Made by a program: the position numbers and the translations under genes. DNA of 64,000 nt from Helicobacter sp. 16-1353 (GTDB lineage Bacteria > Campylobacterota > Campylobacteria > Campylobacterales > Helicobacteraceae): positions 1 through 64,000 of the forward strand of contig NZ_NHYM01000007.1 in the NCBI RefSeq assembly GCF_003288815.1, written 5' to 3'. The first letter of the stretch is position 1. Each line of letters starts with the position of its first letter. Shown piece after piece: positions 10,192 to 28,199 of this stretch. Under the pieces are notes generated by a model. That model worked only from the letters and a program-made list of their open reading frames with translations, did no database searches and was not told where the DNA came from.

Positions 10192-11412
10192 ATGGAAAAT
10201 ATGCTTAAAAAAGCACAGGAAGCAAAAAAAATAATTGCGAATCTAAAAGATAATGTGAGAAATGACATATTAAACAAAATGGCAGAAAATCTTATTAAAA
10301 ACAAAGATTCTATTCTAAATGCAAATAAAATCGATATAAAAAACGCACAAGATTCCCTATCAAATGCTATGTTGGAGCGATTAAAACTAGATTCCAAAAA
10401 AATAGATTCTATGGCAAAATCCCTAAATGAAATCGCAGATTTAAAAAGTCCAATAGGCAGAATCCTAGATGGATTTGAAAACTACAAGGGATTAAAAATA
10501 CAAAAGGTATCTGTCCCAATTGGTATTATTGCTGTGATTTACGAATCGCGTCCAAATGTTACAAGCGATACTTCGGCATTATGCTTTAAAAGCGGTAATG
10601 TTTGTATTCTAAAAGGCGGGAAAGAATCCATAAACTCAAATAAAGCTATTTTGGAGATTTTACATAAAAGCTTAGAATCCTACAATATCCCAAAGGCTGC
10701 AATTAGCTTTGTAGATTCTAGAGATTCTATGGAATCTCTATTAAAAGAATATAAATATATAGATTTAGTTATTCCACGAGGTGGGGAAAATCTCATTAAA
10801 TTTGTAACAACAAATTCCACCATTCCTGTTATCAAACACGATAAGGGCGTATGTCATTTATACATACATAAATATTGCGATAAAAAGAAAGCACTAAATA
10901 TAGCAATAAACGCAAAAAGCTCAAAACCAGCAGTTTGCAATAGTATTGAAACGATTTTAATCCACGAGGATTCTAACATCTTAGCAGAGCTAATAGAAAC
11001 CTTAAAGAAAAATAATATTAAAATAAAAGCTTGTAAGAATCTTGCAGATAGATTTAATTTAGATATTGCTGTGGAGAGTGATTTTTACAATGAATATGGC
11101 GATAATATACTAAATCTAAAAATAGTCAAAAACACCAATGAAGCAATAGAGCACATACAAAAATATGGCTCAAGCCATTCTGATAGCATTATAACAGAGG
11201 ATTACAGCGTAGCACAGCGATTTTTAAATGAGGTAGATTCTGCTTGTGTGTATGTAAATGCAAGCACAAGATTCAGCGATGGAGGGGAATTTGGCTTTGG
11301 GGCGGAGATTGGAATCTCAACTTCTAAGATACACGCAAGGGGACCGATGGGAATTGAAAGTCTTACAACATATAAATACCAAATCTATGGCGATGGGCAG
11401 ATACGAGAATAA
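10192..11412 (+). CDS. proA: Gamma-glutamyl phosphate reductase ProA
   Basis: Reduces gamma-glutamyl phosphate to glutamate semialdehyde with NADPH in proline synthesis. Full-length (406 residues). Diagnostic segments are IPRGGENLIKFV, IPVIKHDKGVCHLY, the catalytic Cys249 in SKPAVCNSIETIL, and the C-terminal ARGPMGIESLTTYKY. It starts 18 bases after the response regulator stop with an AGGAAAAATA leader; the two may share a transcript but need not be related in function. proB is not in the window. Confidence 0.95.
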   Translation: MENMLKKAQEAKKIIANLKDNVRNDILNKMAENLIKNKDSILNANKIDIKNAQDSLSNAMLERLKLDSKKIDSMAKSLNEIADLKSPIGRILDGFENYKGLKIQKVSVPIGIIAVIYESRPNVTSDTSALCFKSGNVCILKGGKESINSNKAILEILHKSLESYNIPKAAISFVDSRDSMESLLKEYKYIDLVIPRGGENLIKFVTTNSTIPVIKHDKGVCHLYIHKYCDKKKALNIAINAKSSKPAVCNSIETILIHEDSNILAELIETLKKNNIKIKACKNLADRFNLDIAVESDFYNEYGDNILNLKIVKNTNEAIEHIQKYGSSHSDSIITEDYSVAQRFLNEVDSACVYVNASTRFSDGGEFGFGAEIGISTSKIHARGPMGIESLTTYKYQIYGDGQIRE

Positions 11413-11418
11413 AAAATA

Positions 11419-12804
11419 TTAATTATCTTTTGGCGGATTTATATCTTGTAATGGTTTGCTTATATAATATCCCTGTGCGTAGTCCATTCCCATTTCTTTA
11501 ACAACATCATAAACTTCTTTTGAGCTTACAAATTCTGCTATTGTGTAGATTTTAAGTAATTTAGCAAAGCGAACAATCGTCTCAACTATAATCTTTGCAT
11601 TTTTATCTTTATCTATATTTTTAATTAGGGAGCCATCAATCTTTAAGAAATCTATTTGTAACTGCATCAAAATAGAAAAGTTAGAATATCCGCTACCAAA
11701 GTCATCTAAAGCGATTTGGACGCCCAATTCCTTAATATTTGTAATAAAATTACTAACACTATCAAAATCCTCAATACTCTCTTGCTCTGTTATCTCAACA
11801 ACTACCCTGCCCTCTAGATTATAATGCACGATTCTATCCATAAACCATATTGAAAAATCCGAAGATAACATATCTTCTAATGCAAGATTCACAGAAAAAG
11901 TAAGATTCTTCCTAGTCGATAAATATGCAAAAGATTTTTCTATCATAAGTTTTGAAAGCTTTGAATACGCACTTGAACGCTTGGAAATCTCTAAAAATAA
12001 TCCCGGCGGGATAATATGTCCCTCTTTATCCTTAATACGCATAAGGGCTTCATATTTTTCTTTATCTTTTGTGTCGTGGTATCCTTGAATACCCTCTATT
12101 TTTTGGTAAAAAGGCACAACTTCTTGACTTTTTAGTGCTTGATATATGATTTCAGTATATTGGATATTATTTTTTAATGTGTTTAAAATAGGCAGATTTC
12201 TGTTATAAATTACAATTGGATTTTTATATTCTTTCGCGTGATGAAGTGCCATTTGAGCATTTACCATACTATATTTAGCACTATCATAAGAAAATGCAAT
12301 GCCAATAGTCGCAGTTAGATTAATATATGTATAACCATCAATTAGGATTTCTTTCTTACCTAGATAATTTAAAAAATTCTCTAATTTATGTATAAACATA
12401 CTTCTATCTATACAATTAGGCCAAAGGATAGCAAAATCATCACCATGGATTCTATATAATAAATAGTTTTCATCTTTAAAATAATTTTTTAGGATATTTG
12501 CCACAGAGCATAGAATTTGGTCTGCCAACTCCACACCATAAAAACTATTTATTTCCTTAAAATTGCTTATGTTTAAAACGGCTATCACATGATTTGAATA
12601 CTCTTCTAAATCTTGTCTAAGCACAATATTTGTTTTTAATCCCGTTAATGGGTCGCAGTTTATGCAAGTATTTAAGTCATATATTTGTTTTGCGATATTA
12701 TTATGAAAATATCTTGATATTTCAGCCACTTCCTTTGGTGAAGTAATAATCTTTTGCGACCAATTCGTAAAGTGGGTTTTATTTGTTTTATAAAAATTTT
12801 GCAT
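11419..12804 (-). CDS. GGDEF-EAL cyclic di-GMP protein, C-terminal part of a frameshifted gene
   Basis: The 461-residue frame carries a GGDEF domain (about 45-200) with degenerate signature HGDDF (120-124), so probably no cyclase activity, and an EAL phosphodiesterase domain (about 210-455). The EAL catalytic set looks intact: Glu252 in YEALMR, Asn306, Glu337, Asp367-Asp368 in DDFGSGYS, Lys388 and Glu424. The frame continues upstream of ATG 12804 without a stop to the T8 run at 12878-12885, where it meets the end of the membrane segment encoded in another frame. One extra T would join them into a protein of about 550 residues. As read, this part would need internal initiation. Confidence 0.8.
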   Translation of the reverse strand: MQNFYKTNKTHFTNWSQKIITSPKEVAEISRYFHNNIAKQIYDLNTCINCDPLTGLKTNIVLRQDLEEYSNHVIAVLNISNFKEINSFYGVELADQILCSVANILKNYFKDENYLLYRIHGDDFAILWPNCIDRSMFIHKLENFLNYLGKKEILIDGYTYINLTATIGIAFSYDSAKYSMVNAQMALHHAKEYKNPIVIYNRNLPILNTLKNNIQYTEIIYQALKSQEVVPFYQKIEGIQGYHDTKDKEKYEALMRIKDKEGHIIPPGLFLEISKRSSAYSKLSKLMIEKSFAYLSTRKNLTFSVNLALEDMLSSDFSIWFMDRIVHYNLEGRVVVEITEQESIEDFDSVSNFITNIKELGVQIALDDFGSGYSNFSILMQLQIDFLKIDGSLIKNIDKDKNAKIIVETIVRFAKLLKIYTIAEFVSSKEVYDVVKEMGMDYAQGYYISKPLQDINPPKDN

Positions 12805-12830
12805 ATCTTCATAAAAAATATTGAGCGAAT

Positions 12831-13064
12831 TTAATATATTATCCCTAAGAAATTTATTTGAAAAATGTATGATAAGTAAAAAAAAGTTATATTTATAGCA
12901 ATGAGAATCCCAATAAAACTTGCAAAAAAGGCTAAACTGCTTGATGTTTCTTCAATAAGCGTTAAAAATAGCATTCCACATATTATATAACCTGTATTTA
13001 TTAACAAAAATATAAATACTGGAATAAATAAAAATACTTTAAAGTTAGCCTTTATATCATACAA
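12831..13064 (-). CDS. N-terminal membrane segment of the frameshifted GGDEF-EAL gene
   Basis: A short frame with two strong TM helices (starting FLFIPVFIFLLINTGYI and LAFFASFIGILIAINITFF). The start is TTG 13064, chosen because GGAGGG (13071-13076 on the complement) lies six bases upstream; the TTG at 13094 has no such site. After the T8 run the frame reads YLSYIFQINFLGIIY and stops. In the alternative frame the same bases give LLIIHFSNKFL and then run into the GGDEF-EAL frame, a normal TM exit with basic residues. I therefore read this as the 5' part of one split gene. Confidence 0.7.
   Translation of the reverse strand: MYDIKANFKVFLFIPVFIFLLINTGYIICGMLFLTLIEETSSSLAFFASFIGILIAINITFFYLSYIFQINFLGIIY
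12878..12885 (-). repeat. T8 homopolymer at the frameshift in the GGDEF-EAL gene
   Basis: Eight A on the plus strand (T8 in the coding strand). With T8 or T7 translation stops within about 15 codons; with T9 (or T6) the membrane segment joins the GGDEF-EAL frame. Candidate slippage site or sequencing indel. Confidence 0.7.
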
Positions 13065-13144: not shown

Positions 13145-14746
13145 CTACATTTGGTCTATATAATCTGGAAAATGCAAAATCAAATCTTGTGGAAACTTTT
13201 TTGTAATTTTACTAAAAAAAATTCTATTGACAAACAAATCGCCAATTATGCCTATATCTTTAATACCATAATTAGTATTTGCATCGCGAAATACATTAAT
13301 AACAAAATCTGCCAAACTATCTAGGATTCCGTAGCATAGGGTTTCATTGTCAATTCCAGCTAGAGTAAAACTAATAGATGAGCTAACAGAAGCTAAATAA
13401 TCGTAGTTTGCTTCTCCATCGCTATTTATTATTTTAAAGTCGATTCTAGGACCAATATCGCGTAATGATAAACTTGCATATTCAAAAATCCTATCTTTTT
13501 CTAAAATCTTGCTAAAGCCCAAAATAACGCAAATAGAACTAAAAATATCTAAAATATTATCACTCCATATTTCTTCATCACTAAAGCTATTAATAAAATG
13601 GATTCTATCTGGGAATGACTTTTCGTAATTCTCCAAAAGCTTTTTACCATTTGGTCGAAGTGAAAGCTGCTTTAAGATATTTTTTGGATTCATATCAAAA
13701 TGAATATTTATTATATTAGCATTAGAATCTAGAATCTTAAATATTGTTTGATGGTATGTGCTAATATATGCGACAAATAAAGGCGTATTAGTATCAAAAT
13801 TTGATTGGATAAAAGGAATTAAGCCATATTTTGTTATATTAGAATCCTTAGTAGAATCTAAAAATTTATTTTCTATAAAATATCCATTTTCACCCATAAC
13901 AATCTCAAAAAATCGCTCTTTAAAAGGATTTATATAATCTATCCCATTTTTTATCTTATGTTTTTTGTATTCCCCATTATCATAATTTGCAAATAAAAAT
14001 GGTATTTCTAAATCTATCAAAATACTTGATAATGCACATAGAATAGGGTCATAAGGCAAAATAAATAAAGCGTTTTTAAAACCCAATTCATTCACAAAAA
14101 CTTCTTTGATATATAGATTTATATAAGGTTTTTCAAATGTCGCCAACGCATCTAATTCATTTTGAGTGGCTCTTGTATAAAGATTTATCGTTGATATATC
14201 ATTTGATAAAATAAAGTCAAAATCCCTATTATTGAGCGATAAAATAATCTCTCCTTTTATCGTTTGAAATCGCACAGATTCCCCATTTTGCAACATCTTA
14301 GTAATGCTATTTAGAGAATCTTTTAATTTATCTTTTGTAGTAATGCTTTTATTATCAAATAATATATCTATATTTATTTTACTATTTGGATATGTGAAAA
14401 TATCACAAAATTGCTCTCCATTAATATCCTTAATATTAATAGTTTCACTTAAATCAAAGTCAAATGTGCAACTCTGCTCATCGATAGTAGAAGAATAACC
14501 CTTCATCATCTCCTTAGAAACCTCAACACTTTTTAGTATAAAATATAATGAAAGCGGGATTTTATAGGATATTTGAGTGGCGAAATTACTTAGATTCTCA
14601 TCATCTCCATTAACAAAAAATAATAACTCATTACCTAAAATCATATCATAATGCTTTAAATCAAGCCCAGTAGCAGTTTTTCGCATAATTTTTAGGAAAT
14701 AATCTTTATTTGAATGTTTATATAAAAAAATAAATTTAAGAATCAT
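13145..14746 (-). CDS. hydE: HydE, hydrogenase operon protein with HypF-like C terminus
   Basis: Last gene of the hydABCDE operon; a 533-residue protein like that at the same place in H. pylori and Wolinella. Its exact role is not established. The N terminus (residues 1-75) and C-terminal third resemble the Kae1/HypF carbamoyltransferase fold: ETLCYGILDSLADFVINVF and KDIGIIGDLFVNRIFFSKI align in pattern with the HypF C-terminal nucleotide-binding domain, but the usual metal and ATP motifs are not visible, so it may be a non-catalytic paralogue. ATG 14746 shares one base with the hydD stop. Its place in the operon implies maturation of the hydrogenase. Confidence 0.75.
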   Translation of the reverse strand: MILKFIFLYKHSNKDYFLKIMRKTATGLDLKHYDMILGNELLFFVNGDDENLSNFATQISYKIPLSLYFILKSVEVSKEMMKGYSSTIDEQSCTFDFDLSETINIKDINGEQFCDIFTYPNSKINIDILFDNKSITTKDKLKDSLNSITKMLQNGESVRFQTIKGEIILSLNNRDFDFILSNDISTINLYTRATQNELDALATFEKPYINLYIKEVFVNELGFKNALFILPYDPILCALSSILIDLEIPFLFANYDNGEYKKHKIKNGIDYINPFKERFFEIVMGENGYFIENKFLDSTKDSNITKYGLIPFIQSNFDTNTPLFVAYISTYHQTIFKILDSNANIINIHFDMNPKNILKQLSLRPNGKKLLENYEKSFPDRIHFINSFSDEEIWSDNILDIFSSICVILGFSKILEKDRIFEYASLSLRDIGPRIDFKIINSDGEANYDYLASVSSSISFTLAGIDNETLCYGILDSLADFVINVFRDANTNYGIKDIGIIGDLFVNRIFFSKITKKFPQDLILHFPDYIDQM

Positions 14747-15285
14747 TAATAGCCTTTAAATGAATTATTAGCTATTTCTTGAATATCCCTATTATCAACC
14801 TCATCTATACTAAAACCAAGTTCTTTTAGATATTTTAATGCAATATCACGCATCACTATACAAGAATCTTTGATTTTCGGTGATAGATTAAAAGCTGTAT
14901 CATCATTTAATATTTCTGGAATCGTCGCTATTATCTTGATTTGTGGTAAATCACCTAGTATTTCAATCATCTTTAATGTTTGCAACATTTCGACTTCGTG
15001 TGCCGTGCCCTGCCAATTTAGGTTATTTGGAATATTATTAAAATCAAAAAAGAATACATCTCCAATATTTCCATCATCAGCATTAATGCAATCCAAAATC
15101 AAAACACTATCATAAGAGGTTATAAGGGGAATCAAACTTTGAGCTAAAGTCCCACCATCAATAATATCAAGACTATGCTCACTAGAGGTGAATTTATAAT
15201 TCACCTTAAGAAGATTGGATAGATGAACGCCAATGCCCTCATCTCCAAATAAAATATTACCAATGCCAAGAATTAGAATCTTCAT
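14746..15285 (-). CDS. hydD: HydD hydrogenase maturation endopeptidase
   Basis: Nickel-dependent endopeptidase of the HyaD/HybD family that removes the C-terminal tail of the large subunit after nickel insertion. Seen are the N-terminal GIGNILFGDEGIGVHL, where the Glu of GDEG is a nickel ligand, LDIIDGGT, the Asp in LILDCINADD, and HEV (about 80-100) contributing the third ligand. ATG 15285 is preferred over GTG 15294 because the family begins directly with the hydrophobic strand KILILGIGN. It overlaps hydE by one base. Its substrate is expected to be HydB. Confidence 0.9.
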   Translation of the reverse strand: MKILILGIGNILFGDEGIGVHLSNLLKVNYKFTSSEHSLDIIDGGTLAQSLIPLITSYDSVLILDCINADDGNIGDVFFFDFNNIPNNLNWQGTAHEVEMLQTLKMIEILGDLPQIKIIATIPEILNDDTAFNLSPKIKDSCIVMRDIALKYLKELGFSIDEVDNRDIQEIANNSFKGY

Positions 15286-15364
15286 AAATACCACAAACCT
15301 AAATTAAATATCATTCTCTATCTCTCGCTTTAATTTATATAAGATTCTAATTCATTTAACAATA

Positions 15365-16054
15365 TCAATTCTCTTTTGCAACTTCTTGGTAGCGATACCC
15401 ACCAACGATAGAATCTGCCCCGCCATCTGGGTGTTTTACTGCATTCCAAACGACCATATAAACATGCACAGGGATAAAAATGATAATCGCCCAAGTAGTA
15501 ATATGGTGTATCTTTCTAACATTTGCTAATCCACCAACAGCAACTTCAAGCCATTTAAAGCAAGGTTCTAATATCGCTCCTAAGCCATTATGATATACAT
15601 TATAATACAAAATCACGCCACTTAGGGAAATAATAAGCACCAAAATCGCCAAAATCAAATATGCAAAAAATTGTATTGGGTTATAAACTCCCTTTACATG
15701 CGGATGAGCACCCATAAAAAGATAGTTTTTTATCTGCCCTATCCACATTTTAGCACTAAATAAATCACTTGCATAAACTTTCTCATTTGTTTTTCTAGTC
15801 GTGCTTAAGAATAAATACAATCTAAAAATCGAAACTGATATAAGCAAAAATCCAGCTATAACATGAAAACTCCTAAAAGTCGCAATCAAAAAGCCGGTAG
15901 GCTCTGGATTTGGATTTGGAGTCAAAAATGGATATGCGATATAGAATCCACTAAAAATTAAAAAGAATATCGAAAACGCTCTCACCCAGTGAAAAAATCT
16001 AACACCGGGCGTGAAAGTCAAAGTTCTTTTAAAAAATTTTTCTTTTGTTATCAT
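15365..16054 (-). CDS. hydC: HydC, cytochrome b subunit of NiFe hydrogenase
   Basis: Di-heme cytochrome b that passes electrons from H2 oxidation to menaquinone and anchors the enzyme. The 229-residue protein has four TM helices with the conserved heme His residues in VRFFHWVRAFSIF, TFRSFHVIAGFLL, and the pair HHITTWAIIIFIPVHVYMV, and ends with the family motif KHPDGGADSIVGGYRY. It follows hydB after nine bases with CTCCTT (complement AAGGAG) as ribosome site. An 79-base gap separates it from hydD, so translation is not coupled there. Confidence 0.93.
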   Translation of the reverse strand: MITKEKFFKRTLTFTPGVRFFHWVRAFSIFFLIFSGFYIAYPFLTPNPNPEPTGFLIATFRSFHVIAGFLLISVSIFRLYLFLSTTRKTNEKVYASDLFSAKMWIGQIKNYLFMGAHPHVKGVYNPIQFFAYLILAILVLIISLSGVILYYNVYHNGLGAILEPCFKWLEVAVGGLANVRKIHHITTWAIIIFIPVHVYMVVWNAVKHPDGGADSIVGGYRYQEVAKEN

Positions 16055-16063
16055 AACTTCTCC

Positions 16064-17788
16064 TTATGCGCGTAAAGTCGCAGGATTCACTTTATATTCA
16101 CCTATTTTATTACCTTTGACATCTATCATATGCACTGAACAAGCAATACAAGGGTCAAATGAATGTATAGTTCTAATAATCTCTAATGGTTGGGTTATAT
16201 TTTGAACTTTAATTCCTATCAAACTAGCTTCATAAGGTCCTTTTTGACCTTTTGCATCTCTAGGTCCTGCATTCCAAGTGGATGGAACGACTGCTTGATA
16301 ATTTTCAATAACACCATTTTTGATTCTAACCCAGTGGCTCAAAGTTCCTCTAGGAACATTACCGATATATCGCCCTTTATATTCCTTGTTTTTATCGATT
16401 ACATATGGGGCGCAAGTCGTTTTATCTGTTTTGATATTTTCTATTAATGAATTAAACACTTCAATACCATAATCCGCAGATAATTTACATTCCAACGCCC
16501 TAGCCGCAGTCCTACCTAATGTGCTAAATACCGCACTAACAGGCAATCCTGTATCTTTTAAAAACTTTGTAGCAATAGTGGTAATTCTAGGATTCTTAGC
16601 AGCTAGTCCCACAACAATCGCCGCCAAAGGTCCAACTTCCATCGGCTCTCCATCGTATCTTGGCGATTTAATCCAACTATACTTACCATCTGTATCTAAT
16701 AGTTTGCTACTAACTTCTTTTGAATCCACCCCAATACTAGTGCCATCTTTAAACCCTGTATAATTAGGATTTGTTTTGCCATCATATGGTTGAAGCGGTC
16801 CATTGTCCTTATACCAAGAATGCGTAGCATCCTCTGTGATTAGATTTTCATCAATTGGATGAAGTTTTGTTATATCATAATCTTTTACAATTCCCGTGCT
16901 ATATAGATATTCGCCATTGCCAATTGGAATCTCCTCAAAACAAAGGAAATTCTTAACCCCAGAGCCTTTAAGGACACTTGGCTCATTTTTATAAACCTCA
17001 GCTGCCATCAAAATATCCGGATAATATGCTCTATCCACGAAATCCTTAACATATTTATATTTTAAAAGCCAATCACCCAAACGACTTGGGTCTAAAATAT
17101 CCATAACAGAAGTAACACCACCAACAGTTAGGCTTTGTGGATGTGGCTGCTTAGAGCCAAAAATCGCCATCATTTGTGCGGCAACTCGCTGAACCTCAAG
17201 TAATTTTAGATAATGCGATAAAACGATTAGATTCTGCTCTGGGCTAAATCTATATGTTTTATGTCCCCAATAAGCATTTGCAAATGGTCCTAAAGCTCCT
17301 TTTTTTACGAAATCCGCAACCCTAGTTTGAACTGCCTTTAGCTCATCTTCACCTGTATTCATAGGAAAATCGGCATAATTAAATGCGAGTTTTGAAGCCT
17401 TTGCAGGTGAAGCGCTAAGCGCAGATACTACATCACACCAATCCAATCCGTGCAATGTGTAAAAATGCACTGTGTGGTCGTGTAATACAAGCGAAATATT
17501 CATCAATGAGCGGACTAATTCGGCATTTTTTGGCGGGATTATACCTAGTGCATTTTCAACCGCCGAGATTCCAGCCTTATAGTGAGAATAAGTGCAAACA
17601 CCGCAGATTCTCTGCATCATAAATCCAGCATCTCTTGGGTCTCTATTTTGCACTATTCGCTCTAAACCTCTCCAAAGTGTAGAAGATGAAAATGCGTCCT
17701 GTATCACATTATTTTCATCTACTACAACCTCAATTCTTAAATGCCCTTCAATTCTTGTTATCGGGTCAACTACGATTCTTTTTGTCAT
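16064..17788 (-). CDS. hydB: HydB, large subunit of membrane-bound NiFe hydrogenase
   Basis: Catalytic subunit of the quinone-reactive uptake hydrogenase. Both nickel-binding Cys pairs are present: RICGVCTYSHYKAG near residue 60 and DPCIACSVH near the C terminus. HydD should cut after the His of the second motif, removing the tail MIDVKGNKIGEYKVNPATLRA (written here as the last 21 residues starting at MIDVKGN). The N-terminal DPITRIEGHLRIEV is a family hallmark. The 574-residue length is normal. Lies between hydA and hydC in one operon. Confidence 0.95.
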   Translation of the reverse strand: MTKRIVVDPITRIEGHLRIEVVVDENNVIQDAFSSSTLWRGLERIVQNRDPRDAGFMMQRICGVCTYSHYKAGISAVENALGIIPPKNAELVRSLMNISLVLHDHTVHFYTLHGLDWCDVVSALSASPAKASKLAFNYADFPMNTGEDELKAVQTRVADFVKKGALGPFANAYWGHKTYRFSPEQNLIVLSHYLKLLEVQRVAAQMMAIFGSKQPHPQSLTVGGVTSVMDILDPSRLGDWLLKYKYVKDFVDRAYYPDILMAAEVYKNEPSVLKGSGVKNFLCFEEIPIGNGEYLYSTGIVKDYDITKLHPIDENLITEDATHSWYKDNGPLQPYDGKTNPNYTGFKDGTSIGVDSKEVSSKLLDTDGKYSWIKSPRYDGEPMEVGPLAAIVVGLAAKNPRITTIATKFLKDTGLPVSAVFSTLGRTAARALECKLSADYGIEVFNSLIENIKTDKTTCAPYVIDKNKEYKGRYIGNVPRGTLSHWVRIKNGVIENYQAVVPSTWNAGPRDAKGQKGPYEASLIGIKVQNITQPLEIIRTIHSFDPCIACSVHMIDVKGNKIGEYKVNPATLRA

Positions 17789-17799
17789 TTTAACTCCCC

Positions 17800-18963
17800 T
17801 TAATCTTTACTTTTTGTTACAGCAGAAATAGCAGCATGTGCAGCAATACCAATTGCAGTAGCACTCAATAGCACAATGCCAATAGTATCAGCAGTCTTGT
17901 CTGCACCCAAGCCATCAAATTTTGTTGCATATAGTTTATTTGCAAGTGGCTCTTCAAATGGACTCATAGTATCCCAGAAATTCGGCTCACTACAACCGAT
18001 ACATCCGTGCCCAGCTCTTACAGGCCAACTTGTGTGGTCGTTAAACCCAAGTCTAGAGCAGTTATTAAATGTATATGGACCTTTACAACCCACTTTATAC
18101 AAGCAATATCCATTTTGTGCTCCCTCATCACCGAAGCTTTGGACGAATTCTCCAGCATCAAAATGTCCTCTTCTCTCGCATAAATCGTGGATTCTATGTC
18201 CGTAAGCCCAAGTTGGGCGATTATACGCATCGATTGCTGGAAGTGTGCCAAATAAAATAAAATGCAATACGCTTCCTACGATATTTTTCTCACTTGGCGG
18301 ACAGCCGGGGACATTTATCACAGGCTTATTTGTGATTTTGCTAAGTGGCATTGCATTTGTTGGATTTGGATTTGCCGCTTGGACGCCACCAAAGCTAGAG
18401 CAAGTTCCAATAGCAAATATCGCTAAAGCGTCTTTTGCCGCTTCCCTTGCATTATGTGCTCCTGTAGCTCCGTGAGCCCCAATTGTGAGATAAAACTCAC
18501 TTCCACCAGATGGGATTCCGCCCTCTACCATAAGGATATATTTCCCTTTATAATCCCTTATAGCATTTTGCATATTCTCTTCTGCTTGCCACCCAGAGGC
18601 AGCCATAACGGTCTCGTGATATTCCAAGCTAATATAATCAAAAATTAGGCTATCTATGCTAGGTGTAGAGCTTCTAAGTAAGCTTTCGCTACAGCCCGTG
18701 CATTCCGCCATATGTAGCCAAACTACCGGAATTCGTCCAGCTAATTCCGCTGCTTTTGCTGTTAGCGGAATAAATGAGCTAGGAAGTGCTAGAGTAGCAG
18801 TCATAGCAGCTGCCCATTTCATAAAATCCCGTCTTGAAATTCCATTATTATCCAACATGTCTTTGACATTCCCACTATTTTTATCAATTCGTGTTGGTAA
18901 TTTTTCTAACTCCTCAAGCCTTTTTAAGGCTTCATTATATGCAAGATTATCCTTTTTAAACAT
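17800..18963 (-). CDS. hydA: HydA, small subunit of membrane-bound NiFe hydrogenase
   Basis: Iron-sulfur subunit carrying electrons from the NiFe site. A Tat signal is visible (SRRDFMKWAAAMTATLALPS, about 38-57), so the dimer is exported folded. Cluster ligands include MAECTGCSESLL, GTCSSFGG, VPGCPPSE, HDLCERRGHFDAGEF and HGCIGCSEPNFWD. A C-terminal TM helix (starting IGIVLLSATAIGIAAHAA) anchors it near HydC. First gene of hydABCDE; AAGGAG lies nine bases before ATG 18963. Confidence 0.95.
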   Translation of the reverse strand: MFKKDNLAYNEALKRLEELEKLPTRIDKNSGNVKDMLDNNGISRRDFMKWAAAMTATLALPSSFIPLTAKAAELAGRIPVVWLHMAECTGCSESLLRSSTPSIDSLIFDYISLEYHETVMAASGWQAEENMQNAIRDYKGKYILMVEGGIPSGGSEFYLTIGAHGATGAHNAREAAKDALAIFAIGTCSSFGGVQAANPNPTNAMPLSKITNKPVINVPGCPPSEKNIVGSVLHFILFGTLPAIDAYNRPTWAYGHRIHDLCERRGHFDAGEFVQSFGDEGAQNGYCLYKVGCKGPYTFNNCSRLGFNDHTSWPVRAGHGCIGCSEPNFWDTMSPFEEPLANKLYATKFDGLGADKTADTIGIVLLSATAIGIAAHAAISAVTKSKD

Positions 18964-26735: not shown

Positions 26736-28199
26736 TTAGGCTTTGGAAGCTCCATTTGGTGGATTTTTGCGTGAATCTACAAATGATTTTGTGGAATCCG
26801 CAACAAGTGAGCCAAATATAAATGCTAAGCTTAGAGCTAAGAATGTGGATTCTGGGTGTCCTGTGAGTGGGTCGCCACTTGTTCCAGCTCCGATATAAAG
26901 TAGCATAATGCCCCCCCCTAGGATGGCAGAAATTGGGAGTGCAGAGTTAGGCTGAGTTGGGGTAGATTCCGCTAGATTAGTGGATTCCGTGCCGGAATTT
27001 AAAGCGGATTCAATATTAGATTCCGCACCGGAATTTTTGATGGAATTAAAGCCAAATTCCACAGATTCCACTCTAGATTCTGCGGATTCTGCCCTATTTT
27101 TACGCCATATTTTAAGATACTTCCAGCCCATATTAAATACCGCAAAATAGAAAAATAGTAGGCTTAAAAGCCCTATAATCCCACGCTTTGCCATAAAGTT
27201 AAGAATATCATTATGTCTTTTGCCCCGCCCATCGCCGATAGTATTGATATTTTTATCCGTGCCACTTAACTCTTTAATCTCAGTAGTTCGTTCCGCCGCA
27301 CTTTTTGCACTTAGTCCAATTAGTGGCGAAATCCTAAACATCGCTAATGCTTCCTTATACATCACCAGCCTAAGCCCAATTGATGAGCTATAATCGCCAC
27401 TTTTGATTTGCTCTAGTTCGCTCTGTGTGTATTCTAATCTATCGTGTGGCGTGGCTTGTGCGACTATGTAGCCGATAATTCCAATTAATAATAAAAATGA
27501 TAAAAAGTATTTTAGGGCAGTTTTTAGATTTATGATTTTGGTAAAAATACTAAAGATAAATAGCACCACACACGCAAATACAACGCCCAGCACGACGCCT
27601 CTAAGCCCACTTCCCACGACTCCAGAAAATGCCAAAAGCGAGGCAATCAAAAAAACTGCCTTATATTTATGGGAGCTAAAAATAAAAAGGATTAGATTCA
27701 TCACGCATAATGCCCCGCAGATAATGCCAAACTCATTTATCCCGCTAAAGCCCTCTACCCTAGCCCCAGCGTATAATAAATCTGTAAAAATATAAAGTTG
27801 CGATAATGCGATAAGTCCATTGATGATTCCAGCCGCACAAATCGAAAAATACAATATGTTTTTATTGATTTGTGGCTTTGTTTTGAATAATAAAAGAATG
27901 ATAAATGCGAATAATAAATATTTGCTAGGTAAATCTAACTCGCTAAATCCAATTGATAAGCTACTATTTACCAAAAGTGGCGGGAGTGCGGAAAATGCCA
28001 TTAATAAAAATGCGATGAAAAGAAATTTTTCCTCTTTTTCTAGGGCGAAAACTGCGAGTTTTTTTAGCTTTAAAAAAATGTAATATGATAGCAAAACTAA
28101 AAATAGCAAAATGCTACATACTTGCACACTAGGGCGAATCCCACTCGTTACAAAAAACCCCACCACAAGCAATGAAAACAAAATATAAAAAATTCGCAT
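26736..28199 (-). CDS. O-antigen ligase family protein (WaaL/Wzy_C) with G8 tract
   Basis: A 487-residue polytopic membrane protein. About eleven hydrophobic helices and a periplasmic loop with RHNDILNFMAKRGIIGLL (His329), the WaaL catalytic region, plus Arg-rich AGARVEGF and GLRGVVLG segments. Residues about 369-418 form a Glu-Ser-rich linker before the last TM helices. Codons 428-430 (GGG GGG GGC) contain a run of eight G. It is expected to join glycan to lipid A-core or another carrier. AUG 28199 lies 35 bases after the dnaB stop region; transcription probably starts upstream in dnaB or locally. Second ligase-like gene in tandem. Confidence 0.82.
   Translation of the reverse strand: MRIFYILFSLLVVGFFVTSGIRPSVQVCSILLFLVLLSYYIFLKLKKLAVFALEKEEKFLFIAFLLMAFSALPPLLVNSSLSIGFSELDLPSKYLLFAFIILLLFKTKPQINKNILYFSICAAGIINGLIALSQLYIFTDLLYAGARVEGFSGINEFGIICGALCVMNLILFIFSSHKYKAVFLIASLLAFSGVVGSGLRGVVLGVVFACVVLFIFSIFTKIINLKTALKYFLSFLLLIGIIGYIVAQATPHDRLEYTQSELEQIKSGDYSSSIGLRLVMYKEALAMFRISPLIGLSAKSAAERTTEIKELSGTDKNINTIGDGRGKRHNDILNFMAKRGIIGLLSLLFFYFAVFNMGWKYLKIWRKNRAESAESRVESVEFGFNSIKNSGAESNIESALNSGTESTNLAESTPTQPNSALPISAILGGGIMLLYIGAGTSGDPLTGHPESTFLALSLAFIFGSLVADSTKSFVDSRKNPPNGASKA
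26911..26918 (-). repeat. Poly-G8 tract inside the O-antigen ligase gene
   Basis: Eight C on the plus strand, G8 in the coding strand. The length seen keeps the frame. A loss of one G would end translation about 25 codons later; a gain would replace the C-terminal TM region. Runs of this type are classic contingency loci in Helicobacter and Campylobacter. Confidence 0.75.

Follow-up and report, generated by a model that had tools for sequence, protein, structure and literature searches.

The stretch of DNA analysed here (the window) comprises 64,000 nucleotides of Helicobacter sp. 16-1353. Between proA and a [NiFe]-hydrogenase gene cluster it carries a GGDEF-EAL gene whose reading frame is interrupted at a run of eight T residues. 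The features concerned are the following:

10192-11412, plus strand: proA, convergent neighbour (NF001221, 4e-164)
11419-12804, minus strand: degenerate GGDEF (HGDDF) plus EAL segment (Pfam), 461 aa when read from the earliest ATG in the downstream frame
12831-13064, minus strand: upstream frame with a two-TM hairpin segment, the hydrophobic segments being seen in orthologs too
12878-12885, minus strand: T8 run, site of the frame break, zero frame ACT TTT TTT TAC with the heptamer T TTT TTT
13145-18963, minus strand: [NiFe]-hydrogenase gene cluster, upstream of the split gene (TIGR00391, NF007778, TIGR02125, TIGR00072)

The T8 run at complement 12878-12885 was confirmed, its minus-strand context being AAC-T8-AC at 12885-12878. 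The upstream frame begins with a TTG start at 13064 that is preceded by GGAGGG, leaves the frame of the gene past the T8 and terminates at the TAA 12831-12833. The downstream GGDEF-EAL frame is open across the T8 and ends at 11419; its ATG 12804 lies 26 bases past the upstream stop and has a weak GAAG before it. When the frame shift is applied the product has about 548 residues, compared to 542-547 in intact orthologs. Frames and coordinates thus agree with a preliminary description of this DNA, in which a two-TM frame and a GGDEF-EAL frame in different phases meet at the T8, and its estimate of about 550 residues after a one-base shift that joins the frames holds as well.

The hydrogenase cluster comprises genes for the small subunit, the large subunit, a b-type cytochrome and a maturation protease, and an ORF of 533 aa that occupies the hydE position. 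This ORF (minus strand) ends at 13145, just before the split gene, and gave no match in NCBIfam at 1e-10; a homolog of it likewise precedes the gene in other species of the genus. The proA gene also adjoins the gene, in convergent orientation, in two of these species (G001 and G003). A search of the literature for a link between hydrogenase and EAL genes in Helicobacter found nothing direct, and when the region was scanned for promoters and terminators the results were at or near chance level.

The EAL domain (PF00563) was recognised by Pfam with an E-value of 4.6e-53 and 180.5 bits against a cut-off of 31.3, and the GGDEF domain with 1.1e-16. E252, N306, E337/E340, D367, D368, K388, E424 and Q444 (P0001 numbering), which we take to be the EAL catalytic set (E-x-L, N, E, DD, K, E, Q), are invariant in 4/4 orthologs. 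One motif reads AEFVSS, where Ser428 replaces the second Glu that is usual at this position (AEGVET). The four orthologs have HGDDF or AGDDF where an active diguanylate cyclase would be expected to carry GG(D/E)EF, and an RxxD inhibition site, looked for five residues upstream of the motif, was not found in any of the four. The earlier assignment of a degenerate GGDEF motif therefore stands, and that of intact EAL residues stands except for the Ser at the second Glu of AEGVET. Judged by its sequence, the gene product is probably a membrane-anchored c-di-GMP phosphodiesterase.

An AlphaFold model built from four sequences (mean pLDDT 54) was too poor for a fold search. By sequence, the closest solved structure is RbdA (PA0861; PDB 5xgb), with an E-value of 1.1e-41 spanning both domains. 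Like the membrane GGDEF-EAL phosphodiesterases of the RbdA type, the split gene encodes GGDEF and then EAL; unlike them it has a short two-TM hairpin with no sensory domain found, the HGDDF motif and a Ser for the second Glu of AE(G/F)VE. Elsewhere in the genome there are a second EAL gene, a single HD-GYP gene and four further GGDEF matches, and therefore the loss of the split gene would not abolish c-di-GMP turnover. A gene with an HD-GYP phosphodiesterase domain is located just past the window end (G000:C30:69091-69546, G000 being Helicobacter sp. 16-1353).

In three other species of the genus (G001, G003 and G004) the gene is uninterrupted, with open frames of 543-547 residues; the independent decay in relatives that the preliminary description had named as evidence against a switch was not seen. 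The GGDEF-EAL part shares 77-80% identity with the three intact orthologs, the upstream segment shares 43% identity over 85 residues with the N-terminus of the G003 ortholog, and the junction peptide aligns with the relatives across the break. A scan of named genomes for the gene gave matches only in two MAGs, both of other species, and a search of viral contigs gave no match. To locate the break, every possible shift position was scored against the three intact orthologs. The best -1-type transition was obtained for the interval 12869-12887, which includes the T8, with a summed score of 995 compared to 380 for the unshifted sequence. The chance that an A/T run of at least eight falls inside this 19-base interval is about 0.2%, as the compared coding DNA (about 470 kb) holds 77 such runs, and the break is therefore explained either by slippage at the run or by an erroneous run length. 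By alignment, the two-TM segment and the GGDEF-EAL segment belong to a single gene that is split into two halves by a frame break at the T8, as had been proposed; intact orthologs and shift-point scoring agree on this. The homologous site reads T6 in G003 and T5 in G004 and G001, so that T8 is missing in the three congeners, where no shift is needed.

The GGDEF-EAL part shows a dN/dS of 0.05-0.10 compared to the relatives, the synonymous sites being almost saturated. It carries 18 unique changes, compared to 43 in G004, and thus no excess. It is free of stops, although 5.6% of single changes would create one. Had no constraint acted on this part after the break, the expectation would be about 77 stops per substitution per site, and their complete lack would limit the neutral time to at most about 0.04 substitutions per site, which is very roughly 1/20 of the branch, dS being poorly known. 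As there is no decay, the break should be recent, compensated or not real (a consensus error); the absence of decay is, however, equally expected of a switching or rescued gene.

Of the 1.9 Mb genome, 864 kb (stretches L055-L074 and L115-L134) were compared with 1.2 Mb of G003, and frame splits were scored in 467 orthologs (156,523 aligned aa) with G003 as the reference. In the 864 kb, A/T runs of lengths 6 to 9 number 2591, 836, 116 and 10, respectively, which is a smooth fall-off in which a T8 is not unusually long. The earlier remark that A8 runs are common in this sequence is correct, with 16 matches in the window (though below the 58 expected from shuffles) and the 116 A/T8 runs of the larger sample. 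The orthologs contain 451 A/T7, 73 A/T8 and 4 A/T9 runs, and among these the frame is broken at the T8 of the GGDEF-EAL gene only. Altogether 3/467 orthologs have a split frame, which in the remaining two lies at poly-G; widespread homopolymer error is therefore unlikely. In addition, the profiles for MutS1 (MutS_I) and MutL (MutL_C) gave no match in the genome, compared to matches in 11/14 control genomes, and slips at the T8 would therefore escape repair by the mismatch-repair path.

Poly-G/C runs behave differently from the smoothly declining A/T runs. There are 59 of at least 8 in the 864 kb, with a peak at 9-10, and G runs number only 2 at length 7 compared to 29 at length 9 and 13 at length 10. 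This excess at 9-10 is the mark of maintained contingency tracts, and poly-G9-10 are likely the switch tracts of this lineage. In G003, 11 poly-G/C runs of 9 or more were counted in 1.2 Mb. The poly-G/C load of Helicobacter sp. 16-1353 is exceptional and provides a large set of candidate phase-variable genes. The runs are densest at the beginning of contig C2 (L134, C2:1-20000), where 11 of them, within 20 kb, lie in or beside glycosyltransferase-like or receptor-like ORFs. The two poly-G splits concern a glycosyltransferase-like gene at L065 (G000:C11:210614; G9) and a sugar-nucleotide epimerase-like gene at L122 (G000:C28:15607; G8), each compared to its G003 ortholog; from their sequences both are likely phase-variable and OFF as sequenced. 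The sole G/C run of 8 in the window, a C8 at 26911-26918, sits in a 487-aa membrane ORF (26736-28199, minus strand), is in frame as sequenced and is a possible contingency tract.

Several explanations for the broken frame have to be weighed. A single-homopolymer sequencing or assembly error would leave an intact gene, and it fits the draft state of the genome (32 contigs), the complete lack of decay, the intactness of all relatives and the fact that this is the only A/T-run break among the 467 orthologs. The 72 other A/T8 runs, as well as the A/T7 and A/T9 runs, nevertheless break no frame, and we consider such an error unlikely. The break might also be silent, or tune the level of expression, if full-length protein was produced from the T8 either through slippage during transcription or through a -1 frameshift of the ribosome at U UUU UUU. 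Indeed, the zero frame ACU UUU UUU UAC holds the heptamer in the needed phase, so that the full protein would be unchanged whether the ribosome slips by -1 or the mRNA gains one U. A/T homopolymers of at least eight are the favoured and typical sites of transcriptional realignment (PMC3711429), and transcriptional slippage at runs shorter than nine may occur in some bacteria (PMC1088944). The bypassed frame breaks of IS genes and dnaX (PMC1088944, PMC3711429) likewise change frame at an A/T run of eight or nine, but neither the long run nor the heptamer of the split gene is conserved in congeners. As RNA folding also detected no stable structure downstream of the T8 (z = 0.11), recoding appears very unlikely. 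The idea that there are two genes, one for a small membrane protein and one for a soluble GGDEF-EAL protein that begins with ATG 12804, could draw on that ATG, its weak GAAG and its short distance from the upstream stop; it is disfavoured and extremely improbable, because the orthologs carry one open frame (3/3 relatives) and the junction peptide aligns through the break.

The preliminary description had proposed that slippage switches a c-di-GMP phosphodiesterase, i.e. that reversible T8/T9 replication slippage turns the membrane-anchored enzyme off and on in the population. As in repeat-borne phase-variable genes, the gene is otherwise intact and under purifying selection, its frame is broken at the repeat, and MutS1 and MutL were not detected. 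Phase-variable c-di-GMP phosphodiesterases do exist: expression of pdcB and pdcC of Clostridioides difficile varies among clonal cells (PMC9286219), there through inversion of upstream DNA, whereas the split gene has only a T8 frame break. The translationally phase-variable poly-G/A/T genes of Helicobacter (PMC2823697) are similar in having a coding homopolymer beyond which the gene continues in a different frame. In the H. canadensis survey, however, the candidates for translational phase variation were all poly-G, their tracts being long and variable in read data (PMC2823697), whereas for the short T8 no variation is known. Its length is ordinary and otherwise harmless in this genome, the run is missing in congeners, and the contingency-type tracts of the genome are poly-G9-10. 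The proposal is therefore not supported, and we judge reversible phase variation to be quite unlikely. Nothing that we found marks the T8 as a maintained tract, and a switch is possible but unsupported. The more specific idea that, in a bacterium lacking mismatch repair, the T8 allows a reversible change at low frequency from a membrane-anchored phosphodiesterase to a truncated or soluble one and back, tying the c-di-GMP level to a gene that lies with the hydrogenase cluster, is very unlikely.

We therefore favour, with a rough probability of 0.58, a recent strain-level one-base slip at the T run of a real phosphodiesterase gene, which would be revertible in principle and would not constitute a dedicated contingency locus. 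The T5-T6 at the homologous site of the three congeners support such a slip. The ancestor would have had an intact membrane-anchored GGDEF-EAL protein, a probable c-di-GMP phosphodiesterase, encoded behind the hydrogenase genes. The slip would have occurred recently in this strain, in a host without detectable MutS1 or MutL, and the main product of the gene as sequenced would be a short two-TM peptide. Residual full-length GGDEF-EAL protein might be provided if RNA polymerase or the ribosome slips at U UUU UUU to a low extent; alternatively, a soluble form might arise by re-initiation at ATG 12804. Reversion of the slip could occur at a low rate.

The known targets of homopolymer phase variation in Helicobacteraceae are mostly surface structures. 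If switching was true, the split gene would be a case in this family where c-di-GMP signalling is subject to homopolymer phase variation. For the present, it illustrates how a homopolymer frame break can resemble a switch without bearing its marks, in a genome that is rich in likely poly-G switches.
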